Part shown: positions 19,149 to 39,497 of the stretch, one piece after another
Layout of the letters: each line of letters begins with the position of its first letter
Numbering within the stretch: the first letter of the stretch is position 1
Source: Bathymodiolus thermophilus thioautotrophic gill symbiont
GTDB taxonomy: Bacteria; Pseudomonadota; Gammaproteobacteria; PS1; Pseudothioglobaceae
Assembly (NCBI RefSeq): GCF_003711265.1
Contig: NZ_CP024634.1
Span: 1,674,001 to 1,738,000 of the forward strand
Direction of reading: 5' to 3'
Length of the DNA: 64,000 nucleotides
Notes under the pieces: model-generated
The model's input: the letters and a program-made list of their open reading frames with translations, nothing else
Database searches by the model: none
Told to the model about the DNA's origin: nothing
Made by a program: the position numbers and the translations under genes

Positions 19149-20735
19149 TTATTTTTGTGTTTTCAAATAATCTTCATAATTACCCGCATAATAATTAGCA
19201 CCTGATTCTGTTAATTCGACAATTTTAGTGGAGAGTGATGAGACAAATTCTCTGTCGTGGCTGACGAAAATTAGGGTACCTTCGTAGTTTTCTAGTGCTA
19301 GGTTAAGGGCTTCAATGGATTCCATATCAAGGTGGTTGGTGGGCTCGTCCATAACGAGGACATTAGGGTTTTGTAGCATTAATTTACCGAATAACATTCT
19401 GCCTTTTTCGCCACCAGATAGAGATTTAATGCTTTTATCGATGTCATTTTTACCGAATAACATTTTGCCTAGAACGGCGCGCATATCTTGGATTTCTTGG
19501 CTGGGTTTTTTGAATTGTGCCATCCAGTCTAGGACGCTCATATCTTCTTCGAAGTCGGCACTGTGGTCTTGTGCATAATAGCCGATATTGACATTTTCAC
19601 TCCATTTAATCTTGCCTTTGTCGGCTTTTATTTCGCCAATCAGTGTGCGTAATAGTGTGGTTTTTCCGACACCGTTTTGCCCGATAATGGCAACGCGTTG
19701 GCCGACTTCAAAGATAAAGTTCATGTCTTTTAGGACGGACAAATCGCCAAAACTTTTGGACAGTCCTTCTACTTCGATAAGGTTTCGATGCAGGGTTTTG
19801 TCTTGTTTAAAATTGATATATGGACTGACTCTTGAGGAGGGGCGCATATCGTCTAAAACAATTTTATCAAGTTGTTTTAGGCGTGAAGTTGCTTGTTTGG
19901 ACTTAGAGGCGTTGGCTGAAAAGCGAGAAACAAAGTGCTTGAGTTCTTTCATTTTTGCTTCTTTCTTGGCGTTATCGGTTTGCATTTTTTCTTGAATGGC
20001 AGTTGCTGCAATCATAAAGTCATCATAATTACCGGGGAAAGTTTTTAATGCGCCATAATCTAAATCTGACATATGTGTACAAACGCCGTTTAAAAAATGT
20101 CTATCGTGCGAAATAATAACCATTGTGGCTTTACGGGCTTTCAATATACCTTCTAGCCAGCGAATTGAATTAATATCCAAGTTGTTGGTTGGTTCGTCCA
20201 ATAATAAAATCTCAGGGTCGGAGAATAAAGCTTGTGCCAACAATACACGAAGTTTCCAACCGGGGGCGATTTCGCTCATCAAGCCATAATGTTGGTCTTC
20301 GGGAATGTCTAAACCCAATAGCAATTCACTGGCAGAAGATTCTGCCATATAGCCATCCATTTCGGCAAATTCCATCTCTAATTCTGCCACCTTGGTGCCG
20401 TCTGCTTCGCTCATTTCTGGCAAGGCGTAAATACGGTCTCTTTCTTGCTTAATTTTCCATAATTCGCTATGCCCCATAATCACGGCATCGACCACACGAA
20501 AATCTTCAAACGCAAATTGATCTTGGTGCAAAATGCCCAATCGCTCACCATCGCTAACATGGACTGTGCCTTGCGTTGGCGTCAATTCGCCTGTTAAAAT
20601 CTTCATAAAGGTTGACTTGCCACAACCATTTGCACCAATCAAGCCGTAACGGTTGCCGCCGGAAAATTTGATGGAAATATTTTCAAATAAAGGCTTTTCA
20701 CCAAATTGCATCGTAATGTTAGCAGTAGAAATCAT
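19149..20735 (-). CDS. ybiT: ABC-F family ATPase, YbiT type
   Basis: 528 aa from [20 protein letters not shown]. Two ABC domains are joined by the linker typical of ABC-F proteins, with no membrane segments. Walker A motifs [10 protein letters not shown] and [10 protein letters not shown], signature [11 protein letters not shown] in the second half, Walker [12 protein letters not shown] and [14 protein letters not shown] proteins bind the ribosome E site and act on translation. Length and the [20 protein letters not shown] stretch match YbiT rather than EttA or Uup. The open frame begins 14 codons earlier, but this start fits the family. Confidence 0.92.
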
Positions 20736-20850
20736 AAGTTTATTGTTGTTTTTTACAAAACGAACATTATCCCACAAGGATTATTAAAATCTTAACTAAT
20801 CACTTTTGAATTTAAGGTATAAATAGCGGTCAAATTACTTGCTTACCTTT

Positions 20851-21990
20851 ATGCTCTCAAAAATATTCAATAAAACTGCTCAATTGCCTGATAAAAACTT
20901 ACTTGTTGCTATTTTGGCGCTGATAATCTTTGGCTGGATACTGTCATCTTCTGCCTCTATTGGGCATTTTGGTAATTATAGCAAAGCCATTAATCAGGCT
21001 ATTTATATTGTACTTGGTATGTTTTTTGGTCTTTTGGTGCTTAAATCTCCTTTGTCTCTTTACAAAGAAAATCGTTATTGGCTTTTTTTGATTACCATTA
21101 TATTGTTGGCAGTGGTTTTTTCCCCCATAGGCAAAACCATTAATGGCTCTACACGCTGGATTGATTTAGTTGCATTCAAATTGCAACCTTCTGAAATTTT
21201 AAAAATAGTTATTATTTTATTTGTTGCTGGTTTTTTGGTTGAGCAAGAAAAAGACTTAAGACGCCCTTGGATGGGGTTTATCAAAACTTTAGTCATTATT
21301 ACTGTTCCGGGTGTATTGTTACTACTTGAATCTGATTTTGGTGCAACCATTATTGTTGTAGCAACTGTATTGGCAATGTTGCTTGCTTCTGGTGTTTATT
21401 TAAAGCAGTTGTTTATTTTTGGCGGGGTTGCCCTGCTATTCGTGGTTGGCCTCATTTCCCTCAACCCAAACCGAGTTGAGCGCTTTACTTCCTTTTGGAG
21501 AGATGACTTGTGGCTCAATCATTCTGACAAAGTGTGGCAAACCAAACAAGCACTCGTTGGCATTGCCAGAGGCGATTGGACTGGCGTGGGACTGGGTAAT
21601 AGCATTCAAAAATACACCAAATTACCTGAGCCGCATACCGATATGATTTTTGCCATTATCGGTGAAGAGACTGGTATTATTGGCATGCTATTTGTTATCC
21701 TTACCTTTACTTATATTATGCTCAAAGGGTTTAAAATTGCCAAAGAGGCACTTAAAGATAACCGCAGATACAGTTCGTATGTTGGTTTTGGCATTTGCAC
21801 TTGGTTGAGTATGCAATTTAGCGTTAATATCGCTATGAACCTTGGCTTGATTCCACCCAAAGGATTTACCTTGCCATTGGTTAGTTATGGCGGCTCAAGT
21901 ATTATATTTGCACTCATTTCTATGGCGTTATTATTGAGGATCAATATGGAAAATAAAGCGGATTCAACCAAGCGAAAATATTATGTCTAA
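20851..21990 (+). CDS. ftsW: Lipid II polymerase / cell-division protein FtsW
   Basis: 379 aa from ATG at 20851; a TTG four codons upstream is an alternative. About ten transmembrane helices of the SEDS fold are present. Signatures: [44 protein letters not shown] and VSYGGSSI. It polymerises septal peptidoglycan with FtsI. The last 8 bases overlap murG, the gene order of the dcw cluster, although murC and others do not follow. Confidence 0.93.
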
Positions 21991-22993
21991 AACTATCTTA
22001 ATAATGGCAGGTGGCACGGGCGGGCATATTTTTCCCGCTTTGGCAATTGCCAAAGCACTCAAATCCCACTCGGTTAATGTTGAGTGGCTTGGCTCAAAAC
22101 ACGGTATGGAAAATACACTGGTGCCCAAACACAATATTAAACTCCACAGCGTTAATGCCGTTGGATTGCGTGGCAAAAGTGCACTCACGCTGATTAAAGC
22201 CCCCTTCTCATTGTCGCTTGCTGTTTTACAAACCTTGCGTGTGTTTTTCAAAGTTAAACCTAGTGCAGTATTGGGCATGGGTGGCTTTGCCTCAGGCATT
22301 GGCGGCTTGGTTGCTTGGGTTTTGCGCATTCCCTTGATTATTCATGAACAAAACTCAATCCCCGGCACCACCAATAAAATGCTATCCAGAATTGCCACCC
22401 AAACTTTTCAAGCATTTGATGGTGCATTTGACAATGCTATCACCACTGGTAATCCTGTGTTATTTAAACCTAAAGAAAATCACAACAACCACAAAAAACT
22501 CAACTTATTGATTGTTGGTGGCAGTCTTGGATCTAAGCCTATCAATGATATTGTCAGTCAATTAAATATCGATATTGAAATTTGGCATCAAACGGGTAAA
22601 CAACACTTAGACAATGTTAAAGCCCAATATGCAAACAAAAATGCAAAGATAACGGCATTTATTGATGATATGGCAGATGCTTACGCATGGGCAGATGTGG
22701 TTTTGTGTCGTGCTGGCGCAATGACAGTGTCGGAATTAATGCTTTCAGCCAAACCCAGTATTTTAATTCCCTTGCCTCATGCGATTGACAATCATCAATT
22801 TTATAATGCCAAAATTTTAGCCGATAACAACGCTGGTATTTTGATTGAACAAAAGGCATTAAGCATTGAATTGTTAACCTCAACACTAACAGCATTCAAC
22901 ACTGAAAAACTCAATGTCATGAGTAAAAATGCAAAAAAACTCGCCAAACCCAATGCGGCAAAAGTCATTGGCAGCTATTTATATCGCCTATAA
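21983..22993 (+). CDS. murG: UDP-GlcNAc:undecaprenyl-PP-MurNAc-pentapeptide GlcNAc transferase
   Basis: 336 aa, a GT-B glycosyltransferase making lipid II at the inner face of the membrane. N-terminal [15 protein letters not shown] glycine loop, [19 protein letters not shown], and the donor site [32 protein letters not shown]. Slightly shorter than the usual ~355 aa but all motifs are present. Cotranslated with ftsW; converges on bioB with 3 bp between. A decayed copy lies at 9545. Confidence 0.95.
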
Positions 22994-22996
22994 GGC

Positions 22997-23950
22997 TTAC
23001 ACCAAAGATGCTTGGTTAATGCCCAATCTTTCAAACAGAATTTGGTCGGTATTGGTGTCTGGATTGTCTGTTGTCAATAATTGCTCGCCATAAAAAATAG
23101 AATTTGCACCTGCAAAAAAACACAGTGCTTGCATTGCTTCGCCCATTTCGGTGCGCCCTGCTGATAAACGCACCACTGATTTTGGCATCATAATGCGTGC
23201 CGCTGCAATGGTGCGAACAAATTCACTTTCCGTTGGTGGGGCAACTTTCTCAAATGGGGTACCAGGGATTGGCACCAAAAGATTGAGTGGCACACTATCT
23301 GGGTGTTGTGCTAAATTCGCCAACGAACGCAACATAGATGCTCTATCGGTTTGCCCTTCACCCAAACCCAAGATACCGCCACTGCATACATGAATATCGG
23401 CATTTTGCACAGACTCTAAAGTATCCAATCGGTCTTGAAAATTGCGTGTAGTAATCACATTTGAATAGTTTTCTTTTGAGGTATCAATATTATGATTGTA
23501 ATAATCCAACCCCGCTTCTTTTAAAGTAAATGCTTGTGCTTGCGTCAACATTCCCAGAGTAACACAAGTTTCCATGCCCATAGCCTTCACACCTTGAATC
23601 ATAGGAATGACTTTGTCCAAGCTTTTGTCAGTTGGATTGCGCCAAGCAGCACCCATACAAAAACGAGTCGCCCCTTTGTTTTTTGCTTCTTGTGCCTGTT
23701 CAAGCACTGTATCAACTTCCATTAACTTTTCCCGCTCTAACCCTGTGTCGTATTTAGAACTTTGCGAACAATACGAACAATCTTCTGGGCAAGCGCCCGT
23801 TTTAATGTTTAACAAAGAACTTACTTGAACTTGATTTGGATCAAAATTTTCTCTATGAATCGTGTGCGCTTGAAACAATAAATCATTAAAAGGCAGTGCA
23901 AATAAAGCCTCAACTTCTGTTAGTGTCCAATCATTTCTTAATTCTTTCAT
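22997..23950 (-). CDS. bioB: Biotin synthase
   Basis: 317 aa radical-SAM enzyme inserting sulfur into dethiobiotin. The ACPEDCSYC motif holds the [4Fe-4S] cluster; YYNHNIDTS and the C-terminal RLSAGR motif, whose Arg binds the [2Fe-2S] cluster, are present. Start [17 protein letters not shown] matches the family. No other bio genes are adjacent. A TAAAAT -10-like box occurs ~40 bp before the start. A decayed copy lies at 10757. Confidence 0.95.
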
Positions 23951-24000
23951 CAGTTATCTCATCGCAAATAATTTTTGCTATTTTACAGCCTTTTAGACAC

Positions 24001-24031
24001 AAAAAAGCCGTGCAATTGCACGGCTTTTTTT
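24001..24031 (-). terminator. Intrinsic terminator after glnA
   Basis: AAAAAAGCCGTGC, loop AATT, GCACGGCTTTTTT: a perfect stem with A/T flanks, 20 bp beyond the glnA stop. Works in either direction. Confidence 0.9.
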
Positions 24032-24051
24032 AAGTTAAAACCTAGGTTGGC

Positions 24052-25467
24052 TTAACAACTATAATACATATCAAACTCAACAGGATGAGGAGAAGCGCGT
24101 AATGCGGTTACCTCTTTCATTTTTAGTCCAATAAATGAATCAATTACATTGTCAGTAAACACGCCGCCTTGCTTTAAAAACTCACGGTCTTTGTCAAGCG
24201 CTTCAAGTGCTTGGTCTAACGAACTACAAACCTTAGGAATAGCAGCTTTCTCTTTTTCGCTCAATTCATACAAGTCTTCATCACCCGGCTTTCCTGGTTC
24301 AATTTTATTTTTAATGCCATCAAGTCCTGCCATTAACATCGCTGAAAATGCAAGATACGGGTTAGCCGTTGCATCTGGGAAACGCACCTCAATACGACGA
24401 CCTTTTGGACTAGATACAAAAGGAATACGAATAGCGGCAGAACGGTTTTTAGCCGAATATGCCAACATTTCTGGTGCTTCAAACCCTGGTACCAAACGCT
24501 TATAAGAGTTGGTAGAAGAGTTGGTAAAGGCGTTAAGCGCCTGAGCATGCTTGATAATACCGCCAATATAATAAAGCGCCATTTGACTTAACTTGCCGTA
24601 TTCATCACCATCAAATAAGTTTTTACCATCTTTGAAAATTGACTGATGCACATGCATACCGTTGCCATTATCAACGGCAATTGGCTTAGGCATAAAAGTG
24701 GCAGTTTTGCCGTAAACATGTGCCACATTATGGATGCAGTATTTTAAGATTTGCGTCTCGTCTGCTTTTTTTACCAAAGTGTTAAACAAAGCACCAATTT
24801 CACATTGACCTGCTGTGCCTACTTCATGGTGATGCACTTCAGTGGTTACCCCCATTTCTTCAATGGCCAAACACATTTGTGAGCGTAAATCATGTAATGA
24901 ATCTACAGGAGGAACTGGAAAGTAGCCACCTTTAATTCTAGGACGGTGCCCTTTGTTACCGCCTTCAAAATCAGAACCAGACTCCCAGTCTGCTTCTTCA
25001 GAATTAATTTCATAAAACGCCTTACCTAAGCCAAAACCTGTGTCCCATTTAACACTATCAAAGACAAAAAATTCTGGCTCATTGCCAAAATAAGCAGTGT
25101 CACCAATCCCTATTTCATTTAAATATTCTTCAGCGCGTTTAGCAATAGAACGAGGGTCTTTTTCATAACCCTTCATATCATTTGATTCAATAATATCGCA
25201 AGTAATGTTCAAAGTAGATTCATCGGTAAATGGATCCAAAACTGCCGTTGCTGTATCTGGTTTCATAATCATATCAGATTCATTAATTGGCTTCCAGCCA
25301 GCGATTGAAGAACCATCAAACATTTGCCCTTCTTCTAATTTCTCGCTGTCAATGGTGTGAGCTGGAACACTTACATGGTGTTCTTTGCCTATAGTATCAG
25401 TAAAACGAAAGTCAATAAATTTCACTTCGTTATCCTTTATCATCTTCATTACATCTTTTGCAGACAT
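24052..25467 (-). CDS. glnA: Type I glutamine synthetase
   Basis: 471 aa, the dodecameric GSI-beta length. ATP-dependent amidation of glutamate to glutamine. Signatures: [54 protein letters not shown] and the metal-site RIPFVSS region. The [13 protein letters not shown] segment carries the Tyr that GlnE adenylylates in enteric enzymes, so activity is probably under GlnE/PII control. An AGGAGA site precedes the start. TTGACG with a downstream AATAAT about 130 bp upstream could be its promoter (weak). No ntrBC follows. Confidence 0.97.
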
Positions 25468-25636
25468 ATTTTCTCCTATTTTTTTAAATAATTTTGATTA
25501 CTAACAATCGTTGTTAAACTGTCTGCGCCGTTGCAAACAAAATTTTATTGTTATAAAAACAATCGCATTATTCTACCCTATTTTCCCCGTCAATAGAATA
25601 ATCTCTTAGACTTTTTTAATGAGACCTTTATATAAA

Positions 25637-25805
25637 GTGATACCATTTTTAAAAATAAAATGAATAATATGGTGCTTACAATCGCCCAAGTATTAGCAGT
25701 AAAAATACCTGTAATACTTATTGATAGCATGGATATTTTTACTGCTAATACTTAGGATCAGGGTGAACGCTAGACTGTTTGGTTTATTTTTAAAAATGGT
25801 ATCAC
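25637..25805. mobile_element. Mini-element family B, complete copy
   Basis: 169 bp with perfect 23-bp ends GTGATACCATTTTTAAAAATAAA and its complement. The interior has a second dyad (AGTATTAGCAGTAAAAATA ... TATTTTTACTGCTAATACT). Non-coding. Partial copies at 18940, 42386, 47366, 52676, 55674 and 62278. A family A end (GAGACCTTTATATAAA) abuts it at 25621. The rest of the 25468-26074 gap holds the glnA upstream region and the lectin-gene remnant below. Confidence 0.88.
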
Positions 25806-25821
25806 CATCCAAAGCGCACAC

Positions 25822-25960
25822 AACTGTCGTGGACGATAGCCGTGGCTACCTAGACCATGGATAAAATTCAGCCGAAACGAAGTGTGCTTGAGGTTATTGT
25901 CAGTGCTATACGAGGATGTCCAAAAATCGTTGATGGGGCGAAAACTTGCATTAGACAAAA
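25822..25960 (-). pseudogene. Lcl_C (DUF1566) C-terminal remnant
   Basis: INDFWTSSYSTDNNLKHTSF and RLNFIHGL then SHGYRPRQL reads like the end of an Lcl_C domain (FWSSS...W.L.F...G). Start and final residues are absent, and it lies directly downstream of the 173-aa gene. Also present in R2 at 31513. Confidence 0.55.
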
Positions 25961-26074
25961 GAGTCTACTACGGTGACTAATGTGGCTAACACTGCCAACT
26001 AAAATATCCCCAACTTGAAAACGAAGCATTCACTTGAGTGTTAAGACTGAACTACAACAAGGGAAAAATAAAAA

Positions 26075-26596
26075 TTACTGCTCAGAACGCACTAAACGAA
26101 CATGATGTTTAATAGTGCGTTTATCGGTAGCATTAGAATTATCAGAAAAATTCTGTATCCACGCATTACTAGAATTGCTGGAACTAAGTGAGGACGACCA
26201 AAAAAAGCCATCAGGTGCATTTGGAAATATAGTTGTATTAATACTGGGGTCATAACAATTATCAATTGCAAGTGACCTTAGTTCACTTATGTTTGGCAAG
26301 CGCCAATCTTTGTACCCTGCAAAACCCGAACCTGTATTTACGCTAAGTGGTACTTGCAATGCCTCTTGCCAAGTGTTTGTCGTAAGTGTGCCTGTGGCAC
26401 AATCATTGCCATTAGCACTATGACTCAATCCTTCGGCACATTGTTTCCACATAAGCCCTGTGATTTTATCGGTGATGGTGCTATTGTGATTGGTATAGCG
26501 ACTATCCTGCCAATTGTTAGGAATGTATCCTTGACAAATTTGAGCATTCGCCAAACTTACTAAAAAAGTTAATGTTAAAAAGAGAAGGGTTTTCAT
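26075..26596 (-). CDS. Secreted Lcl_C (DUF1566) domain protein, R1 copy
   Basis: 173 aa. Signal peptide 1-18 (FLTLTFLVSLANA), then one Lcl_C domain: DKITGLMWKQCAEG, TNTWQEALQVPL, GYKDWRLPNISELRSL, FFWSSSLSSSNSSNAW and HHVRLVRSEQ. The fold is C-type-lectin-like; in Legionella Lcl this domain binds sulfated glycans, so an adhesive role is inferred. Two cysteine pairs probably form disulfides. The R2 copy at 31774 is ~92% identical, with changes concentrated near the C-terminal loops. Confidence 0.82.
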   Translation of the reverse strand: MKTLLFLTLTFLVSLANAQICQGYIPNNWQDSRYTNHNSTITDKITGLMWKQCAEGLSHSANGNDCATGTLTTNTWQEALQVPLSVNTGSGFAGYKDWRLPNISELRSLAIDNCYDPSINTTIFPNAPDGFFWSSSLSSSNSSNAWIQNFSDNSNATDKRTIKHHVRLVRSEQ

Positions 26597-26634
26597 GATT
26601 TTTTCCTATTAATTAAAAAATTAAAAATATTGTT

Positions 26635-26796
26635 AAGACCTTTGCATAAAATATGGGTGATTAGCAAAATTCAATTTTTGCCCACTTGGTAATTTTCTTA
26701 AACCTTGTACTAGCAGGGCTAAGTCTGGGTTTAAAAAATTACCAAGTGGGTAAAATGAGGATTCTTGATGATTATTCATATTTATACAAAGGTCTC
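26635..26796. mobile_element. Family A mini-element in R1
   Basis: 162 bp, ends AAGACCTTTGCATAAAATAT and TATTTATACAAAGGTCTC. It lies where a reverse-transcriptase gene would be expected downstream of an Avd gene. The equivalent copy in R2 shows it predates the duplication. Confidence 0.85.
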
Positions 26797-26800
26797 ATTG

Positions 26801-27094
26801 TTAAATTAGATAAGGTTGATTGCTAATGTAACTTAGTGTGTGACTGGATACAAATAGTTGCCTGACTCGGCGTTGTTTGTAGCAATTATATACATAGCCT
26901 TTTATTTTTAACACCTCACTCAAATCACAGACTGTTTTTCTTGTTTTGCTGCCTAGTGTATATTTATGATACCTAAGGAAATGCTGTGCAGTATTCTCCA
27001 TTTCTACAACTAGACGATTGATATTGAGATAAATGGGGAATCTGTTGTGATATTGCATTGGTTTGTATCGCCTGTTATAAAAAAAATAAATCAC
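26801..27094 (-). pseudogene. Avd-like four-helix-bundle gene, frameshifted (R1)
   Basis: 97 codons. Residues ~14-63 (YHNRFPIYLNINRLVVEM, AQHFLRYHKYTLGSKTRK, VCDLSEVLKI) match the pattern of diversity-generating retroelement accessory proteins (Avd): F/LPIY..., a long helix, then F.R.YKYTLG...R. After LKI the frame yields an unrelated tail, while another frame reads MYIIATNNAESGN, like the next Avd helix (I..ANN). The protein is therefore broken; the same break is in the R2 copy. It overlaps the lipoprotein stop by 4 bp, the position Avd holds behind a target gene. No reverse transcriptase is found in the window. Confidence 0.55.
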
Positions 27095-30000
27095 TGTCCG
27101 GAACGCACCAAACGAACATAACCTTTACTATTACGATTGTAGCCGTGATTAAAGCCAGCGCTAAATCGCAGTTGCCACGCAAGGTCGTGATTGTCAGCTT
27201 TAGGTGAAGACGACCAAACGCTTAATGTTGTAACTGTAGATGTGTTTGGAAAGTAATGGTTGTCAATTTTTGGGTTGACCATTCCCTGATGAACAATACT
27301 TCCCAACTCAACAATAGTCGGCACCTTCCAATTGGTAAACCCACAGTAACCATTGCCAGCATTCTTACTGTCCACTAAACTTGTCCAGTCATCATTATAT
27401 GCGCCTCGCTTATTGGCATGGTTTCTGCCCAGTGCAGTTTTTCCACCCCAAGCATATAGAGTAGATTTGTTACTACCAGTTTTTACCTCCCAAACCAATC
27501 CTGTATGGTTGTCTTTCACACAAGACCATTTAGTGCCAGCACTTTCTGTGCCAGTGTCGCCTGTGTCGTCTGCTTCCCATGTTGCATTTTGAATACTTAA
27601 CACATTGCCTGTACTACCAAGTTTGGTGAAATCAAACCCAGCCATGCCGCCACCCACTTTTGCTAAAGTGCCAGCGACTGCTTTGGCATCTCGTCCATGT
27701 GAGCAATCTTGTGCTGCTATTTTTTCGCCTGTGCAAGTGTCATTATTACCCGACTCATAATTCCCGCCCTGAGTTATACCTGTATCATTAAGCACCCCGA
27801 TTAACGGGGTAGCTGTTACTTCGTTAGATTTGTCACTTTCAACGGCACCTTTAGTGGTTGTAACAACAAAATAATATTTAGTGCCATTGGTTAAATTGGT
27901 AATGAATTTACTGTTACTTGTGATATTTTGCAATAACGAGCCACCATTTAAAGAGGCATAGTTTGACAGATCGCTAATACCGTTAAAACTTTGCATTGCA
28001 TAATATACTTGATATTTTGTCGCCCCACTAATTGCGTTCCAAGCCAAGAAAACGGCACCATTGCTTCTGGCTGATGTAAGATTTTCTGGCGTGATTGAAT
28101 CAATGCTGATACTTATCGTGGCCGTACTATCACCTGCTGAGTTAGTGGCTTTAATGGTGTAAGTTGTGGCATCTTGAAGTACGGTTGGTGTACCAGAGAT
28201 TTGACAACTGCCACCAACAAGGGTTATTGTTAAGCCACTTGGAAGACTGGGTTCGCTATTACAACTACTGGCAAGACCGCCTGTATTTATGAACGCAAAA
28301 ACTTCAATACTGGCATTAAGGATTAAATGTTTGACTGATAAATTGGCAAGTACTGGTTTGCTTAAAATAGGAGTGGCACTTACCATGGCACTTAGAGCAC
28401 TTTCAGCATCCCCTTTTACCGCTGTAACAACAAAATAATATTTTGTATCATTGGTTAAGTTGTTAACGGTTCTGCTAACACTAGATGCTTGCACTGACAA
28501 GGCACTACCTAGGTTAGATGCGCTAATTTCATTTTGGGCGTAATATATTTTATATCCTATTGCACCGCTAACTGCACTCCAAGTTAAGTCAACAGCGGCA
28601 TCACCTTTGGTTGCTGTGAGATTTCTTGGCATGCCTAAACCAACACTGATGCTTATCGTAGCTGAACTATCACCGCTTGCATTAGTGGCTTGAATGGTGT
28701 AAGTTGTGGCATTTTGAAGTGCGGTTGGTGTGCCAGAGATTTGGCAACTGCCGTTAGTAAGCATTATTGACAAGCCATTTGGAAGGCTTGTGGCGCTACA
28801 ACTACTAATAGCACCACCTGTATTATTGAACACAAAGGCTGTGATGTTATCATGAAGAATTAAATGTTTGGCTGACAAGCTGGTGATCGATGGCTTGCTT
28901 AAAACAGGAGTGGCACTTATTGCAGCACTTAGAGAACTTTCAACACCCTCTTTTACCGCTGTAACAACAAAATAATATTTTGTGCTATTGGTTAAGTTGT
29001 TAACGATTCCACTAGCATTGGATGCTTGCATTAACAAAGCACTGCCTAAGTTGGATGCACTAATTTCATTTTGGGCGTAATATATTTTATATCCTGTTGC
29101 ACCACTAACTGCACTCCAAGCCAAGGCAATAGTACCATCTCCTATGGTGGCCACCAAGTTTTTTGGCGTATCCAAATCAACTCTAATACTTACTGTGGCT
29201 GTGCTATCGCCTTTTAAATTAGTGGCTTTAACAGTGTAAGTTATGGTGTCTTGTAGTGCAACTGGTGTGCCAGAGATCTCACAACTCCCTTCAGTTAGTG
29301 CTATTGTTAAGCCACTTGGAAGGTTGGGTTCAACACCACAATTACCGGCATCACCACCGATATTGTTAAATGTAAAAGTTGCAGCGCTACCACTAATCAA
29401 GTTTTTGGTTAATAAGTTAATAAGCAACGGGTTGCCAATCATATTTGTTTTAATTTTATCGGCATTAACATTTTTAAACTTACTCTCTAAAGCATTAAGT
29501 GCCATTATTAATTTTTCTACAGTCATCCGATCTAATGTCTTATCAGCTAAATCAACTTTGAATAAATCTATAACCTTGCTAAGACTATTGCTATCGCTTG
29601 CGCCCTGGCTTTCAAATTTTGAAAGCATTGCTAAAATCATTGCATAATTTCCAGCATCGTCATCGCCTACATCAATTTTATCAATATCCGTAGGGAGAAT
29701 TAAGGTAATGCTTTTTCCTGACAAACCAAAAGCATTGGCAACTGTGTTGTTATGCGTATCAATAACCTTATTAAGGTCAGTATCAATTTGTACGGCAATT
29801 TCAGTTAATGGGGTGATGGCAAATTTTTCACCCTCGGTGAAATTAAGTGCTGCTCGCAACATTGGCGACTGTTTTTCATTGTTTGTCGCTTCATCGGTAT
29901 AGTCTCCAGCAGAACATTCAATTAAAGCCTTGCCAGAATAACCAATATTACTAAATGCAACGACACCCTTTTTGCTAATCTTGGAGGTTAATTTATCACC

Positions 30001-30162
30001 TTTTGCACCTTCTAAAGTGATTTTATAAATAGAACAATTTGCATTATCAACAGGAGCGGCAGAGAGAAAACCGGAAGAAATGTTTGAAGATGATCCACCA
30101 CTACCGCAAGAAAATAATAAACTGGTGAGAGTCATCAGTCCTAAAGTTTTTAAAAATCGCAT
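27091..30162 (-). CDS. Surface lipoprotein with 3 Ig/FN3 module pairs and C-terminal Lcl_C domain (R1)
   Basis: 1,023 aa. Lipobox TSLLFSCGSGG (Cys ~19) predicts outer-membrane lipidation. Residues ~20-250 form a helical and beta N-terminal region found in similar repeat lipoproteins. Then come three pairs of an Ig-like domain (CxxEPxLPSGLTIAL...GSCQISGTPTxLQ) and a fibronectin-III domain (PKNLVAT...LAWSAVSGATGYKIYYA...KYYFVVTAVK). Residues ~800-1023 form an Lcl_C/DUF1566 C-type-lectin-like domain ending VWSSSPKADNHDLAWQLRF and KGYVRLVRSGQ. This end has the form of a retroelement variable region. Ligand-binding tip on a stalk is inferred. Confidence 0.83.
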   Translation of the reverse strand: MRFLKTLGLMTLTSLLFSCGSGGSSSNISSGFLSAAPVDNANCSIYKITLEGAKGDKLTSKISKKGVVAFSNIGYSGKALIECSAGDYTDEATNNEKQSPMLRAALNFTEGEKFAITPLTEIAVQIDTDLNKVIDTHNNTVANAFGLSGKSITLILPTDIDKIDVGDDDAGNYAMILAMLSKFESQGASDSNSLSKVIDLFKVDLADKTLDRMTVEKLIMALNALESKFKNVNADKIKTNMIGNPLLINLLTKNLISGSAATFTFNNIGGDAGNCGVEPNLPSGLTIALTEGSCEISGTPVALQDTITYTVKATNLKGDSTATVSIRVDLDTPKNLVATIGDGTIALAWSAVSGATGYKIYYAQNEISASNLGSALLMQASNASGIVNNLTNSTKYYFVVTAVKEGVESSLSAAISATPVLSKPSITSLSAKHLILHDNITAFVFNNTGGAISSCSATSLPNGLSIMLTNGSCQISGTPTALQNATTYTIQATNASGDSSATISISVGLGMPRNLTATKGDAAVDLTWSAVSGAIGYKIYYAQNEISASNLGSALSVQASSVSRTVNNLTNDTKYYFVVTAVKGDAESALSAMVSATPILSKPVLANLSVKHLILNASIEVFAFINTGGLASSCNSEPSLPSGLTITLVGGSCQISGTPTVLQDATTYTIKATNSAGDSTATISISIDSITPENLTSARSNGAVFLAWNAISGATKYQVYYAMQSFNGISDLSNYASLNGGSLLQNITSNSKFITNLTNGTKYYFVVTTTKGAVESDKSNEVTATPLIGVLNDTGITQGGNYESGNNDTCTGEKIAAQDCSHGRDAKAVAGTLAKVGGGMAGFDFTKLGSTGNVLSIQNATWEADDTGDTGTESAGTKWSCVKDNHTGLVWEVKTGSNKSTLYAWGGKTALGRNHANKRGAYNDDWTSLVDSKNAGNGYCGFTNWKVPTIVELGSIVHQGMVNPKIDNHYFPNTSTVTTLSVWSSSPKADNHDLAWQLRFSAGFNHGYNRNSKGYVRLVRSGQ

Positions 30163-30430
30163 AAGTATGTCTTGTTAAAAAATAGATGGTAAGTATTATA
30201 GACGAAAAGTCTTTGTTATTATGTTTTTCACTACAAATGAATAGAAATTCACCCCCCCTACTATAAGCTCTGTATCAGATATAAATATCAATTAAAGACC
30301 AACTTTCACTCATTTGTAAATTGTTATAAAGCCCATTTATAGCCCCACTAGATAGACTTTACTTTATAAAAATTCACAACCGAATAAAATTTGCCCTTTA
30401 TTCAACATCCATGTCCAATTCAAGTCTTAT
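30163..30430. promoter_or_regulatory. Upstream region of the R1 lipoprotein
   Basis: Shared with 37500-37767. Contains a C7 homopolymer (around 30252) that could slip, and AT-rich promoter-like sequence on the minus strand. No other structure recognised. Confidence 0.35.
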
Positions 30431-31512
30431 AAGACCCCTGCATTAAACTAAAAACCAAAAAAAAATCACAAATCAACCCTCAAAACCTTATGCAAATATT
30501 AGCATTTATGATAAAATACTATAATTATCAAACACTTACAAAAAAATGCGAGTTAAAACCACTCAAGAACAAACCTTTGCTGATAGTTTTATCAACATAC
30601 CAAACTCCCAACTAGACATCATTAACAAAGTTATCGATTGGGAAGTTATAGCCAAAGATCTGTCTCATATTAAAGTTGACTATTCTGCTGTTAGTCTGTT
30701 TAAAGCGCTATTAATAGGCACATGGCACAATCTGATGCACCTTAATTCAAAGCGCTAGACGCACTAAGAAGATTATTACAACACACAAAACTGGTGAGGT
30801 TTATAAGATTGATAGTAACCCAATTCAATATTCAGACGATAAAGATGCAAGATGGACATTTAAGGCGGGAAAATACACTTATGGATATTCATCAGTAGTA
30901 ACAACTGATGCCAATGGATTAATTAACAAAGCCACTACGCACCCTGCTAATGATAGTGAAATGACTCATTTTGAAGAAAATGTTAAACAGGCAGGCAATC
31001 AAAAAGGCGTAAGCGTTTTATACGACAAAGGAGCAGCCTCTCAAGCTAATAGTGAAGCACTTAAAGCACAAAAGTTAAGAGATGGTATTATGCGCAAAAA
31101 ACCCAAAGGCAAGCAAATGAGTCATTGGAATAAATTACGCAATAAAGCAATCAGCAAAAGAAGGTTTGTGGTTGAACGCACCTTTGGTACGCTCAAACGC
31201 ACTTATGGTTTGGCAAGAAGTCGTTATATTGGTTTAGAGAAAGTTGCCAGCGAAGTTAATCTTAAAGCTATTGCTTATAATCTAGTTAGAGCGGCGAATG
31301 TTTATATTAACAAGGGATTAAATACAGCCTAGGGATTATTGTGTTTTTTTTGTGGAAAGAGTAAAAAAAGAGTAGAAAATGAGCGATTTATAGTTGATAT
31401 TGATGATTTTTTTAATGAAAGTTGGATTTTATATGTTTTTTGACTTTGAAAAGTCAAAAATTGAGGGTTTTGGGTTTTGATGGTTGGTTTTGGGATGCTA
31501 TGCAGGGATCTT
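30431..31512. mobile_element. Defective IS5-like insertion sequence between R1 and R2
   Basis: Outer ends AAGACCCCTGCATTAAAC and (complement) AAGATCCCTGCATAGCAT. The element sits exactly between the two direct repeats and cuts the lectin remnant at 31513. Its transposase is broken, so it cannot move by itself. Confidence 0.7.
30546..31332 (+). pseudogene. IS5-family transposase, internal deletion and frameshift
   Basis: The first part (VDYSAVSLFKALLIGTWHNL) and the second part (SARRTKKIITTHKTGE..., MSHWNKLRNKAISKRRFVVE, RTFGTLKRTYGLARSRYIG) are the ends of an IS5-type DDE transposase. About 90 residues in between, including the first catalytic Asp region, are lost near 30740-30760, where the frame also changes. 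The KRRFVVERTFGTLKR motif holds the final catalytic Glu. Confidence 0.82.
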
Positions 31513-31697
31513 AACTGTCGTGGACGATAGCCGTGGCTATCTAGGCCATGGATAAAATTCAGCCGAAACGAAGTGTGCTTGAGGTTATTGTCAGTGCTAT
31601 ACGAGGATGTCCAAAAATCGTTGATGGGCGTATAAGGTTGAAAACTTGCACTAGATAAAAGGTCTACTGTGGTGACTAATGTGGTTAACACCATCAA
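31513..31697 (-). pseudogene. Lcl_C remnant cut by the IS (R2)
   Basis: PINDFWTSSYSTDNNLKHTS, then LNFIHGLDSHGYRPRQL, interrupted by the IS end at 31512. No start codon with a ribosome site; an upstream domain is missing. Same remnant as 25822. Confidence 0.55.
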
Positions 31698-31773
31698 CTA
31701 AAATACCCTCAACTTGGAAACAAAGCATTCGCTTTACTGTTAAGACTGAACTGCAACAAGAACAAAATAAAAA

Positions 31774-32295
31774 TTACTGCTCGGAGCGCACTAAACGAAC
31801 ATGATGTTTGATAGTGCGTTTATTGGAAGCATTAGAACTATCAGCAAAATTCTGCATCCACGCATTACTAGAATTTTTGGAACTAAGTGAGGACGACCAA
31901 AAAAAGCTAGTAGGTGCATTTGGAAATATAGTTGTATTAATACTGGGGTCATAACAATTATCAGCTGCAAGTGACCTTAGTTCATTTACATTTGGCAAGC
32001 GCCAATCTTTGTACCCTGCAAAACCCGAGCCTGTATTTACGCTAAGTGGTACTTGCAATGCCTCTTGCCAAGTGTTTGTCGAAGGTACGCCTGTGGCACA
32101 ATCATTGCCACCAGTACTATGACTTAACCCTTCGGCACATTGTTTCCACATAAGCCCTGTGATTTTATCGGTGATGGTGCTATTATGATTGGTATAGCGA
32201 CTATCCTGCCAATTGTTAGGAATGTAGTCTTTACAAAATTGAGCATTCGCCAAACTTACTAAAAAAGTTAATGTTAAAAAGAGAGGGGTTTTCAT
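31774..32295 (-). CDS. Secreted Lcl_C (DUF1566) domain protein, R2 copy
   Basis: 173 aa, signal peptide then one Lcl_C domain as in 26075. Differences include PDGFF/PTSFF, SSSN/SSKN, NFSDNSNATD/NFADSSNASN; the framework (GYKDWRLPN, FWSSS, HHVRLVRSEQ) is unchanged. Probably a secreted glycan-binding protein. It is the gene downstream of the Avd-like remnant. Confidence 0.82.
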   Translation of the reverse strand: MKTPLFLTLTFLVSLANAQFCKDYIPNNWQDSRYTNHNSTITDKITGLMWKQCAEGLSHSTGGNDCATGVPSTNTWQEALQVPLSVNTGSGFAGYKDWRLPNVNELRSLAADNCYDPSINTTIFPNAPTSFFWSSSLSSKNSSNAWMQNFADSSNASNKRTIKHHVRLVRSEQ

Positions 32296-32333
32296 GATTT
32301 TTTCCTATTAATTAAAAAATTAAAAATATTGTT

Positions 32334-32495
32334 AAGACCTTTGCATAAATTATGGATGAGTTAGTAAAATTCAATCTTTGCCCAATTGGTGTTTTCTTAA
32401 ACCTTGTCCTAGCAGAGCTAAAGCTGGGTTTAAAAAATTACCAAGTGGGTAAAATGGGGATTCTTGATGATTATTCATATTTATACAAAGGTCTC
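32334..32495. mobile_element. Family A mini-element in R2
   Basis: 162 bp, equivalent to 26635-26796, with a few substitutions. Confidence 0.85.
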
Positions 32496-32793
32496 ATTGG
32501 TAAATTAGGTAAGGTCGATTGCTAATGTAACTTAGTGTGTGGCTGGATACAAACAATTGCCTGACTCGGCGTTGTTTGTAGCAATTATACACATAGCCTT
32601 TTATTTTTAACACCTCACTCAAATCACAGACTGTTTTTCTTGTTTTATCGCCTAGTGTATATTTACAATACCCAAGGAAATGCTGTGCATTCTCCATTTC
32701 TGCAACTAGACGATTGATATTAAGATAAATGGGAAATCTGTTGTGATATTGCATTGGTTTGTATTGCCTGTTATAAAAAAAATAAAAAATCAC
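32494..32793 (-). pseudogene. Avd-like gene, frameshifted (R2)
   Basis: 99 codons, ~88% identical to 26801. Keeps FPIYLNINRLVAEMEN and YCKYTLGDKTRK but has the same altered tail after LKI, so inactivation preceded the duplication. It overlaps the lipoprotein stop by 4 bp. Confidence 0.55.
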
Positions 32794-35700
32794 TGTCCAG
32801 AACGCACCAAACGAACATAACCTTTGCTACCACGACTGTAGCCGTGATTATAGCCAGCATCAAATCGCAGTTGCCACGCAAGGAAGAGATTGCTAGCAGA
32901 AGGTGAAGATGACCAAACGCTTAACCTTGTCTCTGTGTTTGGAAAGTAATGGTTGTCAATTTTTGGGCTGACCATTCCTTGATGAACAATACTTCTCAAC
33001 TCAATAATAGTCGGCACCTTCCAATTGGTAAACCCACAGTAACCATTGCCAGCATTCTTACTGTCCACTAAACTTGTCCAGTCATCGTTATATGCGCCTT
33101 GATTACTGGCATGGTTTCTGCCAAGTGCAGTTTTTCCACCCCAAGCATATTCAGTAAATTTGTTACTATAATTTTTTACCTCCCAAACCAATCCTGTATG
33201 GTTGTCTTTCACACAAGACCATTTAGTGCCAGCACTTTCTGTGCCAGTGTCGCCTGTGTCGTCTGCTTCCCATGTTGCATTTTGAATACTTAACACATTG
33301 CCTGTACTACCAAGTTTGGTGAAATCAAACCCAGCCATGCCACCACCCACTTTTGCTAAAGTGCCAGCGACTGCTTTGCCATCTCGTCCATGTGAGCAAT
33401 CTTGTGCTGCTATTTTTTCGCCTGTGCAAGTGTCATTATTACCCGACTCATAATTCCCGCCCTGAGTTATACCTGTATCATTAAGCACCCCGATTAACGG
33501 GGTAGCTGTTACTTCGTTAGATTTGTCACTTTCAACGGCATCTTTAGTGGTTGTAACAACAAAATAATATTTAGTGCCATTGGTTAAATTGGCAATGAAT
33601 TTACTGTTACTTGTGATATTTTGCAATAACGAGCCACCATTTAAAGAGGCATAGTTTGACAGATCGCTAATACCGTTAAAACTTTGCATTGCATAATATA
33701 CTTGATATTTTGTCGCCCCACTAATTGCGTTCCAAGCCAAGGAAACGGCGCCATTGCTTCTGGCTGATGTAAGATTTTCTGGCGTGATTGAATCAACGCT
33801 GATGCTTATCGTGGCTGTACTATCACCTGCTGAATTAGTGGCTTTAATGGTGTAAGTTGTGGCATCTTGAAGTACGGTTGGTGTGCCAGAGATTTGACAA
33901 CTGCCGCCAACAAGGGCTATTGTTAAGCCACTTGGAAGACCAGGTTCGCTATTACAGCTACTGGCAAGACCGCCTGTATTCATGAATGTAAAGACCTTAA
34001 TACTGGCATTAAAGGTTAAATGTTTGGCTGATAAATTAACAAGTGATGGCTTGCTTAAAACGGGGGTGGCACTTACCATGGCACTTGGAGAACTTTCATC
34101 GGCGCCTTTTATCGCTGTAACAACAAAATAATATCTTGTGTCATTGATTAAGCCAGTAATGGTTTTATTATGATCCTTAACATTTCGCAATAACGAACCA
34201 CCATCTAAAGAAGCGTAGTTGGATAAGTCACTAAGACCACTAAAACTTTGCTTGGCATGATACACTTGATACTTGGTTGCCCCATTAACTGCATCCCAAA
34301 CCAACTCAACGGCAGCATCTTTTTTGGTTGCTATAAGATTTTTTGGTATCCCTAAAATAACTCTAATACTTACCGTGGCTGTGTTATCGCCTACTGAATT
34401 GGTGGCTTTAATGGTGTAAGTTACGGCATTTTGAAGCGTGGTTGGTGTGCCAGAGATTTGACAACTGCCATTCATAAGTGCCATTGTCAAACCACTTGGG
34501 AGACCAGTTTCACTGCTACAACTACTAGCAAGACCGCCTGTGTTTATAAATGTAAAGGCTTCGATACTAGTATTAAGGATTAAATATTTGACTGGTAAAT
34601 TAGCAAGTGATGGTTTGCTTAAAACAGGAGTGGCACTTACCATGGCACTTAGAAAACTTTCAGCGTTCCCTTTTACTGTCGTAACAACAAAATAATATTT
34701 TGTGTCATTAGTTAAATTGTTAACGGTGTCATTAACACTAGACACTTGTACTGACAAAGCATTACTTAGATTGGATGGACTAATTTCATTTTGGGCGTAA
34801 TATATTTTATATCCTGTGGCACCACTAACTGCGTCCCAAGCCAAGTCAACGGTGGTGTCGCCTTTGGTTGCTGTAAGATTTTTTGGCACACCTAAAACCA
34901 CGCTAATACTTACCGTGGCTGTGTTGTCGCCTACTGAATTAATGGCTTTAATGGTGTAAGTCGTGGCATCTTGAAGTGCGGTTGGTGTACCAGAGATTTG
35001 ACAACTGCCACCAACAAGGGTTATTGTTAAACCACTTGGAAGACTAGGTTCGCTATTACAACTACTGGCAAGACCGCCTGTATTTATGAACGCAAAAACT
35101 TCAATACTGGCATTAAGGGTTAAATGTTTGACTGATAAATTGACAAGTGATGGTTTTCTTAAAATAGGAGTGGCGCTTACCATGGCACTTAGAGCACTTT
35201 CAGCATCCCCTTTTACCGCTGTAACGACAAAATAATATTTTGTGTCGTTAGTTAAGTTGTTAACAGTTTCACTGACACTAGATACTTGTACTGACAAGGC
35301 GTTGCTTAGATTGGATGCGCTAATTTCATTTTGGGCGTAATATATTTTATATCCTGTTGCACCACTAACTGCGTCCCAAGCTAAGTCAACGATGTTACTA
35401 CCTTCGGTTGCTACAAGATTTTTTGGTGCACCTAAACTAACACTGATGCTTATCGTAGCTGTACTATCGCCTGCTGTATTAGTGGCTTTAATAGTGTAAA
35501 CCGTGACAGCCTGAAGAGTGGCTGGTGTGCCAGAGATTTGACAACTACCACCAACAAGGGTCATTGTTAAGCCACTTGGGAGGCTGGGTTCGCTACTACA
35601 ATTACTAGCAATGCCGCCTGTGTTTATGAACGCAAAAACTTCGATACTGGCATTAAGGGTTAACTGTTTGGCAGACAAATTGGCGAGTGATGGTTTGTTT

Positions 35701-37499
35701 AAAACAGGGGTAGCACTTACCATAGCACTTAAGGGGCTTTCGGTGCCTCCTTCTACCGCTGTAACGACAAAATAATATTTTGTATCATTGGTTAAGTTGT
35801 TAACGGTTCTACTAACACTAGATACTTGCACTGACAAGACGCTACCTAGGTTAGATGCGCTAATTTCATTTTGGGCGTAATATATTTTATATCCTGTTGC
35901 ACCGCTAACTGCACTCCAAGTTAAGTCAACAGCGGCATCACCTTTGGTTGCTGTGAGATTTCTTGGCATGCCTAAACCAACACTGATGCTTATCGTAGCT
36001 GAACTATCACCGCTTGCATTAGTGGCTTGAATGGTGTAAGTTGTGGCATTTTGAAGTGTAGTTGGTGTGCCAGAGATTTGGCAACTGCCGTTAGTAAGCA
36101 TTATTGACAAGCCATTTGGAAGGCTTGTGGCGCTACAACTACTAATAGCACCACCTGTATTATTGAACACAAAGGCTGTGATGCTATCATGAAGAATTAA
36201 ATGTTTGGCTGGCAAGCTGGCGATCGATGGCTTGCTTAAAACAGGAGTGGCACTTATTGCAGCACTTAGAGAACTTTCAACACCCTCTTTTACCGCTGTA
36301 ACAACAAAATAATATTTTGTGCTATTGGTTAAGTTGTTAACGATTCCACTAGCATTGGATGCTTGCATTAACAAGGCACTGCCTAAGTTGGATGCGCTAA
36401 TTTCATTTTGGGCGTAATATATTTTATATCCTGTTGCACCACTAACTGCACTCCAAGCCAAGGCAATAGTACCATCTCCTATGGTGGCCACCAGATTTTT
36501 TGGCGTATCCAAATCAACTCTAATACTTACTGTGGCTGTGCTATCGCCTTTTAAATTAGTGGCTTTAACGGTGTAAGTTATGGTGTCTTGTAGTGCAACT
36601 GGTGTGCCAGAGATCTCACAACTCCCTTCAGTCAGTGCTATTGTTAAGCCACTTGGAAGATTGGGTTCAACACCACAATTACCAGCATCACCACCGATAT
36701 TGTCAAATGTAAAAGTTGCAGCGCTACCACTAATCAAGTTTTTGGTTAATAAGTTAGTAAGCAACGGGTTGCCAATCATATTTGCTTTAATTCTATCGGC
36801 ATTAACATTTTTAAACTTACTCTCTAAAGCATTAAGTGCCATTATTAATTTTTCTACAGTCATCCGATCTAATGTCTTATCAGCTAAATCAACTTTGAAT
36901 AAATCTATAACCTTACTAAGACTATTGCTCTCGCTTGCGCCCTGGCTTTCAAATTTTGAAAGCATTGCTAAAATCATTGCATAATCTCCAGCATCGTCAT
37001 CGCCTACATCAATTTTATCAATATCCGTAGGGAGAATTAAGGTAATGCTTTTTCCTGACAAACCAAAAGCATTGGCAACTGTGTTGTTATGCGTATCGAT
37101 AACCTTGTTAAGGTCGGTATCAATTTGTACGGCAATTTCAGTTAATGGGGTGATGGCAAATTTTTCACCCTCGGTGAAATTAAGTGCTGCTCGCAACATT
37201 GGCGACTGTTTTTCATCGTTTGTCGCTTCATCGGTATAGTCTCCAGCAGAACATTCAATTAAAGCCTTGCCAGAATAACCAATATTACTAAATGCAACGA
37301 CACCCTTTTTGCTAATCTTGGAGGTTAATTTATCACCTTTTGCACCTTCTAAAGTGATTTTATAAATAGAACAATTTGCATTATCAACAGGAGCGGCAGA
37401 GAGAAAACCGGAAGAAATGTTTGAAGATGATCCACCACTACCGCAAGAAAATAATAAACTGGTGAGAGTCATCAGGCCTAAAGTTTTTAAAAATCGCAT
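32790..37499 (-). CDS. Surface lipoprotein with 6 Ig/FN3 module pairs and C-terminal Lcl_C domain (R2)
   Basis: 1,569 aa. Same lipobox (LLFSC) and N-terminal region as the R1 protein. Six Ig-like plus FN3 pairs follow; the excess of 546 residues over R1 equals exactly three 182-aa pairs, so modules were gained or lost as units. The Lcl_C end reads VWSSSPSASNLFLAWQLRF and GSKGYVRLVRSGQ, and differs from R1 at loop positions while the framework is constant. Other variable loops are KNYSNKFTEYAWG (R1 KTGSNKSTLYAWG) and NHASNQGAYN (R1 NHANKRGAYN). Inferred adhesin. Confidence 0.83.
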   Translation of the reverse strand: MRFLKTLGLMTLTSLLFSCGSGGSSSNISSGFLSAAPVDNANCSIYKITLEGAKGDKLTSKISKKGVVAFSNIGYSGKALIECSAGDYTDEATNDEKQSPMLRAALNFTEGEKFAITPLTEIAVQIDTDLNKVIDTHNNTVANAFGLSGKSITLILPTDIDKIDVGDDDAGDYAMILAMLSKFESQGASESNSLSKVIDLFKVDLADKTLDRMTVEKLIMALNALESKFKNVNADRIKANMIGNPLLTNLLTKNLISGSAATFTFDNIGGDAGNCGVEPNLPSGLTIALTEGSCEISGTPVALQDTITYTVKATNLKGDSTATVSIRVDLDTPKNLVATIGDGTIALAWSAVSGATGYKIYYAQNEISASNLGSALLMQASNASGIVNNLTNSTKYYFVVTAVKEGVESSLSAAISATPVLSKPSIASLPAKHLILHDSITAFVFNNTGGAISSCSATSLPNGLSIMLTNGSCQISGTPTTLQNATTYTIQATNASGDSSATISISVGLGMPRNLTATKGDAAVDLTWSAVSGATGYKIYYAQNEISASNLGSVLSVQVSSVSRTVNNLTNDTKYYFVVTAVEGGTESPLSAMVSATPVLNKPSLANLSAKQLTLNASIEVFAFINTGGIASNCSSEPSLPSGLTMTLVGGSCQISGTPATLQAVTVYTIKATNTAGDSTATISISVSLGAPKNLVATEGSNIVDLAWDAVSGATGYKIYYAQNEISASNLSNALSVQVSSVSETVNNLTNDTKYYFVVTAVKGDAESALSAMVSATPILRKPSLVNLSVKHLTLNASIEVFAFINTGGLASSCNSEPSLPSGLTITLVGGSCQISGTPTALQDATTYTIKAINSVGDNTATVSISVVLGVPKNLTATKGDTTVDLAWDAVSGATGYKIYYAQNEISPSNLSNALSVQVSSVNDTVNNLTNDTKYYFVVTTVKGNAESFLSAMVSATPVLSKPSLANLPVKYLILNTSIEAFTFINTGGLASSCSSETGLPSGLTMALMNGSCQISGTPTTLQNAVTYTIKATNSVGDNTATVSIRVILGIPKNLIATKKDAAVELVWDAVNGATKYQVYHAKQSFSGLSDLSNYASLDGGSLLRNVKDHNKTITGLINDTRYYFVVTAIKGADESSPSAMVSATPVLSKPSLVNLSAKHLTFNASIKVFTFMNTGGLASSCNSEPGLPSGLTIALVGGSCQISGTPTVLQDATTYTIKATNSAGDSTATISISVDSITPENLTSARSNGAVSLAWNAISGATKYQVYYAMQSFNGISDLSNYASLNGGSLLQNITSNSKFIANLTNGTKYYFVVTTTKDAVESDKSNEVTATPLIGVLNDTGITQGGNYESGNNDTCTGEKIAAQDCSHGRDGKAVAGTLAKVGGGMAGFDFTKLGSTGNVLSIQNATWEADDTGDTGTESAGTKWSCVKDNHTGLVWEVKNYSNKFTEYAWGGKTALGRNHASNQGAYNDDWTSLVDSKNAGNGYCGFTNWKVPTIIELRSIVHQGMVSPKIDNHYFPNTETRLSVWSSSPSASNLFLAWQLRFDAGYNHGYSRGSKGYVRLVRSGQ

Positions 37500-37844
37500 A
37501 AATATGCCTTGTTAAAAAATAGATGGCGGGCATTATAGACGAAAAGTCTTTGTTATTATGTTTTTCACTACAAATGAATAGAAATTCACCCCCCCTACTA
37601 TAAGCTCTGTATCAGATATAAATATCAATTAAAGACCAACTTTCACTCATTTGTAAATTGTTATAAAGCCCATTTATAGCCCCACTAGATAGACTTTACT
37701 TTATAAAAATTCACAACCGAATAAAATTTGCCCTTTATTCAACATCCATGTCCAATTCAAGTCTTATGCTTATCAACAAGTATAGATCTTTTGCATGGAT
37801 AATATTACCACCCATTTTTATATTATTTCGCACATTCTTAGCAT

Positions 37845-38066
37845 TCATTGCTTTTCTACCAACAACACAATCTCATCAGTTTTTTCATCAATTTCAAGCA
37901 CCTTATGCCCATGCACCTTACACCAAGCGGGTATATCATGCAACACGCCCGGATCGGTGGCAATGACTTGAATGGTGTCGCCTACTTCTATTTGTTCAAT
38001 TGCCTCGCCTAGTCGGATGACTGGCATGGGGCATAACAGTCGTTTGGTGTCTAAATTAATTCTCAT
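37845..38066 (-). CDS. tusA: TusA-family sulfurtransferase
   Basis: 73 aa. [10 protein letters not shown] contains the CPxP motif whose Cys carries persulfide sulfur. TusA relays sulfur for tRNA thiolation and, in sulfur oxidisers, to the Dsr or Hdr systems. It overlaps hemF by 11 bp as the last gene of the xerC-tsaC-hemF-tusA operon. No dsr or tusBCD genes are in view, so the partner is unknown. Confidence 0.88.
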
Positions 38067-38964: not shown

Positions 38965-39497
38965 CTAAGCCTTTCTCCTGTTTGTAAATTAATAATTTGT
39001 GACGCTTGTGTATTATAGTTTCGTGGCGCGATAATAAAATTTAATTCTTGTTTAAAGGTCATATTTAATGCAAAAACACTGGTTATTGTTGGCTTGCCAG
39101 TGATATTGGCACTGGTAGAAAGTAGCGCACTATTGCATTTTTTACACAAATTGGCAATCAATTTATTGTCTGTTAAGCGCACCGCAACCGTATCAAAATC
39201 ACCTGTAATCAATGTTGATACACCTTTGCGTGCTTTTAATAAATAAGTGGTTGGTTGTTCTTGTGGGCTTATTTGCGTCAATAAATCGATGTCTTGCACA
39301 AATGGTTGAAAAAAACGCACTTCGCTGGCAAGTAAAATGAAGCCTTTTTGGGGGGGTCTGCGCTTAAGCCGTCCCATTTTTTGCATAGCATGTGTATAAC
39401 TTGGCAAACAAGTTAACCCTTGAATGGTGTCTGTCGGATTGCTAATTACCCCACCTAAATTCAGGATTTTTGCTGCTAATCGTGTTTGAAAATTCAT
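38961..39497 (-). CDS. tsaC: Threonylcarbamoyl-AMP synthase (TsaC/YrdC/Sua5 family)
   Basis: 178 aa, the short TsaC form without the Sua5 C-terminal domain. [30 protein letters not shown], and [10 protein letters not shown] with the conserved Ser/Asn pair are seen. It makes the intermediate for N6-threonylcarbamoyl-adenosine in tRNAs reading ANN codons. 4-bp overlaps with xerC and hemF indicate one operon. Confidence 0.9.

Follow-up and report, generated by a model that had tools for sequence, protein, structure and literature searches.

The window analyzed here, a 64,000-nucleotide stretch of the genome of the Bathymodiolus thermophilus thioautotrophic gill symbiont, contains two tandem units about 5.7 kb apart (spacing of 5691 to 5699 in the flanking repeats) that adjoin glnA, bioB, and murG and lie next to 24052-25467 at the glnA locus. 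Each unit is ordered as a long gene, a short open reading frame, a small Lcl_C gene, and an Lcl_C-like remnant, all on the minus strand, and the flanks of the two units are 89 to 98% identical. Long gene A (27091..30162) codes for 1023 amino acids with fn3 repeats (1.9e-21) and a C-terminal Lcl_C domain (DUF1566, PF07603; 4.5e-24), a domain type known from DGR targets, and long gene B (32790..37499) codes for 1569 amino acids, also with fn3 repeats and Lcl_C (6.1e-25). The short open reading frames, here called scar A (26801..27094) and scar B (32494..32793), are fusions of an N-terminal Avd fragment to the C-terminal tail of a lost RT. Small Lcl_C genes A (26075..26596; 4.1e-34) and B (31774..32295; 4.3e-34) each code for 173 amino acids, and the Lcl_C/VR-like remnants (25822..25937 in unit A, E 0.017; 31513..31628 in unit B, E 0.004) are weak matches that are 98% identical to each other. 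A DDE transposase fragment on the plus strand (30961..31332; PF01609, 5.7e-17) lies between the units, with a reading-frame piece near 30547 upstream of it, and a MITE-like element with 15- to 16-nt terminal inverted repeats (AGACCTTTGCATAAA) lies behind each scar (26636-26795 and 32335-32494).

The dN/dS of the long-gene bodies is 0.22, which suggests that the proteins are still in use, and they are likely surface adhesins by analogy with Legionella Lcl and the DUF1566 literature on DGRs, together with their fn3 stalk. The C-terminal DUF1566 domain of Lcl belongs to a surface adhesin that binds glycosaminoglycans, as described in PMC11162425, although Lcl has a collagen-like stalk where the window genes have fn3 repeats, and the word retroelement is absent from that text. 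PMC6642488 names DUF1566 as the PFAM domain found most often in DGR target genes, but the DGRs described there have a TR and an RT. We took the Lcl_C fold from these two papers; an AlphaFold model from a 7-row alignment of the domain had a pLDDT of 32 and was discarded, and the profile of that alignment matched no solved structure at E<=0.01.

The variable regions (VRs) of the long genes are the last 41 codons and the stop codon in A (27091..27216, minus strand) and the corresponding end of B (32790..32915, minus strand). The initial annotation named eight codon pairs that differ between these ends (AAA/TCT, GAC/AGC, CAC/CTC, GAC/TTC, AGC/GAT, TTT/TAT, AAT/AGT, and AAT/GGT), and all eight are present in the coding strands. 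They are the eight amino-acid-changing codons of the VR, which has three silent differences besides; five of the eight are multinucleotide changes and six keep the third base. The first 870 codons, which form the body, have 23 amino-acid-changing codons, one of them multinucleotide, and 31 silent ones, a rate that predicts 1.08 amino acid changes in the VR (Poisson P=1.8e-5). By the Nei-Gojobori method, dN is 0.158 in the VR and 0.009 to 0.016 in three segments of the body, confirming that amino-acid-changing differences are concentrated at the Lcl_C ends; dS is also higher in the VR (0.18, compared with 0.02 to 0.08 in the body segments; in a separate estimate 0.169, compared with 0.054 for the body). 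A second patch within the Lcl_C domain and upstream of the VR (27403..27483 in copy A and 33096..33176 in copy B, both on the minus strand; codons 894 to 920) is equally rich, with seven amino acid changes in 27 codons where 0.71 are expected (P=1e-5). Multibase codon changes are present in this patch and account for 4 of 12 changed codons in the remainder of the Lcl_C domain, and a 6-base indel between copies A and B is located just upstream of the VR. The small-gene pair was considered as a further case of the same VR focus and rejected, with similar dN upstream (0.063) and in the VR (0.071).

An intact DGR with Lcl_C targets is present in a relative, the MAG Dive100_bin10.137 (G066), on contig JAJRPY010000067.1 (C102; locus L111, the same as L138). 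The order there is Avd (3-353, cut off by the contig start), TR (from 562, with 16 AAY codons and encoding the peptide SNFWSSSPNANNSSNAWQLNFNHGNDNNNNNRNNTNRVRLVRLG), RT (635-2170), and three Lcl_C target genes; the RT contains the string GLPIRNITSQ, which we take to be a DGR motif. The nearest target departs from the TR almost solely at adenines (14 of 39, compared with 1 of the 90 remaining positions; p=9.2e-8), and the five remaining targets of this genome give p values of 0.0097, 0.018, 0.27, 0.079, and 0.002. Its Avd is 62% identical to the one full Avd of the window genome, its TR has the same peptide as a TR remnant there, and its RT tail matches the window scars, but RT and TR are retained only in the relative. 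In the family, bAvd is matched in 6 of 83 genomes, and the G066 RT finds matches in 10 genomes, with a full-length RT of that kind only in G066. The longer matches, in G050, G052, G056, G069, and G071, are 31 to 35% identical, apart from one short 52% match (G050). No relative was found among viral contigs scanned with this RT, nor in a contig scan of genomes with long gene A as the query; the Lcl_C alignment matched one locus among the viral contigs.

Comparison with this element identifies what is left in the window. Scar A is 44% identical to the full Avd over residues 2-73, with no Pfam match and an NF033474 hit (E 0.078) below the cutoff, and it matches residues 454-491 of the G066 RT; scar B is 42% identical to the full Avd and matches RT residues 429-490 (E 0.014). 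At the nucleotide level, scar A joins L111 Avd positions 3-125, Avd positions 180-218, and RT positions 2052-2101, and scar B has the same two junctions. An Avd fragment and an RT tail therefore lie beside the target in both units, as remains of a relict DGR. A TR search of positions 20001 to 40000 of the window matched nothing besides the Lcl_C genes and weak remnants.

The window genome is a single contig of 2.83 Mb rated 100% complete, and it has 18 Lcl_C matches, counted as 17 domains since two are in one gene, none of them with internal stops. Nine domains are in long genes and eight in small genes, arranged as long/small pairs with the exception of one long gene. An Avd piece follows seven of the nine long genes (three at L013, the two in the window, and one each at L015 and L016), and none was found beside the long genes of L012 and L014 at E<=1. 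The full Avd open reading frame is at L013 (15137-15511) and matches PF22296 (bAvd; 5e-7) and NF033474 (6.1e-5), both below the curated cutoffs; it is followed by the TR remnant (15648-15734), which has 69% identity over 29 residues and is cut after 29 codons, and then by an RT tail (15746-15814). Searching with the G066 RT recovers only C-terminal tails (residues 425-491) at four places in this genome, two of which are in the window. RVT_1 finds three RTs, and we considered whether one of these could be the DGR RT; this was rejected, as the best models in the PADLOC defense library are RT_UG17 (1.5e-115) for the UG17-like RT at L017 (6500-7711), the retron RT_I-B for an RT split in two adjoining open reading frames at L018 (6148-7166), and AbiP2 (2.6e-168) for the AbiP2-like RT at L019 (5632-7221). 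No DGR RT was thus found in the genome by RVT_1, the PADLOC models, or the G066 RT search, and a complete DGR, with an RT in the genome and a TR near its target, was not recovered.

The proposal that the differences arose at AAC or AAT codons was examined using the G066 TR, a template from another genus that stands in for the lost TR of the window. The TR has AAC or AAT at six of the eight differing columns, in keeping with the proposal, and AGC at the other two, codons 992 and 993 of gene A, where it does not apply. Scored over the 39 adenines and 90 other bases of this TR, with p values that are nominal, drawn from many tests, and taken across paralogous VRs that are not independent, the window long pair has 11 differences among the adenine sites and 7 among the other bases (p=0.0035), and the window small pair has 6 and 5 (p=0.07). 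Differences are concentrated at template adenines in the window long pair and not in the ortholog-like L015/L114 long pair (9/39 versus 24/90, p=0.74); the L015/L114 small pair gives 13/39 versus 15/90 (p=0.032). Only 9 of 24 single VRs of the window genome (G000) and its relative G057 reach p<0.05 against the TR, and these include the L012 gene with no adjoining Avd and its small neighbor.

Adenines largely occupy the first two codon positions, so an apparent adenine bias can also be produced by selection on amino acids. We therefore asked how often pyrimidine-ending codons (NNY) are used at the AAY columns of the TR, counting those residues for which purine-ending codons exist as well and deriving the expectation from the genes of the set outside G066, VRs excluded. 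In the window genome, the seven long genes with a linked Avd use NNY at 40 of 45 such positions (29.7 expected, p=0.0001), whereas at the other VR columns of the TR the same genes are at expectation (63 of 112 versus 59.9). The excess is seen in the two window long genes alone (15/17 versus 11.6 expected, p=0.035), in the small genes of the window genome (34/40 versus 27.4, p=0.010) and of G057 (16/18 versus 12.1, p=0.023), and in G066 targets 2 to 6 (34/38 versus 25.2, p=0.0008), with G057 long genes at 12/14 versus 9.2 (p=0.068). A weak excess is also seen in the four genes of L012 and L014, the loci without Avd (21/29 versus 16.5, p=0.04), perhaps because these are older targets or because the codon test has a background bias.

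We consider it likely, with good confidence, that an Avd-type DGR once diversified the two long genes, which are now its relict targets. While the RT was present, copying of an AAC/AAT-rich template would have put other bases in place of its adenines in the last ∼120 bp of the Lcl_C genes and so altered residues of a lectin-like surface adhesin domain. Deletion of the RT core would have come next, followed by duplication of the ∼5.7-kb unit, and the diversified ends would persist as fixed variants. Because both units share the same scar, loss of the RT in cis probably preceded the duplication, and any later adenine bias between A and B, if real, therefore needs another source: an RT in trans, earlier diversified alleles brought together, or selection. 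The suggestion of adenine-directed retroelement mutagenesis in the initial annotation is supported as the origin of the variation, by the template of the relative and by the Avd and RT scars adjoining the genes, but not as a present activity or a full account. The local element is broken and the searches of the genome recovered no DGR RT, and DGR action does not explain the whole A/B difference, because the patch at 27403-27483 lies outside the template tract and varies as strongly.

That patch, as rich in amino acid changes as the VR, is equally what would be expected if the A/B differences are point mutations in surface loops of Lcl_C under plain positive selection on a ligand-binding face, with no retroelement behind them, even if a DGR had once acted here. 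The L015/L114 pair with no adenine bias and the probable loss of the RT in cis before the duplication are consistent with this, but NNY is favored among synonymous codons at the AAY columns, and multibase changes make up 5 of 8 VR codons and only 1 of 23 in the body, yet 4 of 12 in the remaining Lcl_C domain; we regard selection alone as rather unlikely. Alternatively, recombination may have joined ends that were already diversified in separate strains or clusters, in which case the VR difference predates the tandem arrangement. The presence of 17 Lcl_C genes in similar clusters and the higher dS in the VR than in the body speak for this, and the 6-base indel just upstream of the VR fits an exchanged block; set against this, two deletion junctions are common to both units, the flanks are 89 to 98% identical, and neither copy has a closer VR than that of the other copy among the nine sequences searched. 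We judge this explanation unlikely on balance, though slightly less so than selection alone.

A DGR that is still active, with an RT elsewhere in the cell or a non-DGR RT of the genome rewriting the ends, is very improbable. The full Avd open reading frame and the TR remnant do persist at L013, and in the congeneric G056 targets beside truncated RTs are adenine diversified while a full-length RT is present in only 2 of the 10 modules seen. However, the window genome is one contig with a 100% completeness rating, a DGR model is the best match for none of its three RTs, searching with the G066 RT recovers tails only, and the L013 TR remnant stops after 29 codons.

G056 belongs to the same genus as the window genome, and the five 20-kb stretches of its contig C1 that we examined (L072 to L076; 1-40000, 55001-95000, and 1410001-1430000) contain an array of DGR modules whose targets belong to a family other than Lcl_C. 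The TR is present in 10 identical copies. Differences from it in the 13 VRs affect 197 of 648 adenines and 16 of 1302 other bases, and two of the 10 RT open reading frames seen have 381 residues (full length), the other eight having 83 or 92. With adenine-diversified VRs beside truncated RTs, this array is a plausible congeneric precedent for RT action in trans. We regard it as a real possibility, somewhat short of an even chance, that RT-less DGR modules behave as satellites, duplicated and with their VRs still rewritten by an RT elsewhere until the last RT is lost and the repertoire is frozen. If so, the window pair would be a fossil of the satellite state, marked by the shared RT-deletion scar and by VR divergence biased to adenines, and the G056 array, with 10 modules seen, identical TRs, and two full-length RTs, a present-day example.

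Other relatives show different degrees of decay. DGR cassette pieces are also found beside three long Lcl_C genes of G057, whose locus beside glnA, bioB, and murG has one unit. The Avd there is uninterrupted over L111 positions 12-276 and is followed by a bit of TR (601-626), a break that differs from that in the window; this difference suggests two or more losses of the RT core at the glnA place, unless a paralogue has taken over from one of the occupants. Between the two genomes, the long genes at this place are strongly diverged (dS 0.9). In Ca. Ruthia sp. Plio_17_S18 (CP072538.1; L139, 5200-6700), a member of the family in which the G041 match of the RT search is located, an Lcl_C pseudogene runs directly into a DGR RT start, of which 52 residues are matched (79% in the best segment) and the remainder is lost, with a small Lcl_C remnant behind it; judged by eye, this locus lies beside carA-like and ThiS-like genes, as does L114.

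Relict DGR targets are already known: remnant DGR target genes occur in Treponema denticola isolates that have no RT and TR, as reported in PMC4891356. As described there, diversified target genes are likewise left after loss of the core, and the window is a further case, differing in that Avd and RT-tail scars persist in several clusters of a single genome and that a unit was duplicated after the loss. No paper on a DGR in Bathymodiolus or sulfur-oxidizing symbionts, or on DUF1566 in Bathymodiolus, was found in open-access full texts. On the relict-target reading, odd codon differences become a datable history, in which a hypermutation system would be lost and its products kept, with stages among relatives from a complete system (G066), through an amplified one with few full RTs (G056) and scars only (the window genome), to a pseudogene (Ca. 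Ruthia). The several clusters with different deletion points in one genome, together with these staged relatives, allow tests of whether diversified adhesins are still useful after loss of the mutator and whether RT-less modules are served in trans. We also note that the small Lcl_C gene at L013 (4744-5409) has an insert of repeats of about ten residues (NNSSLNSQ-like) inside its VR.
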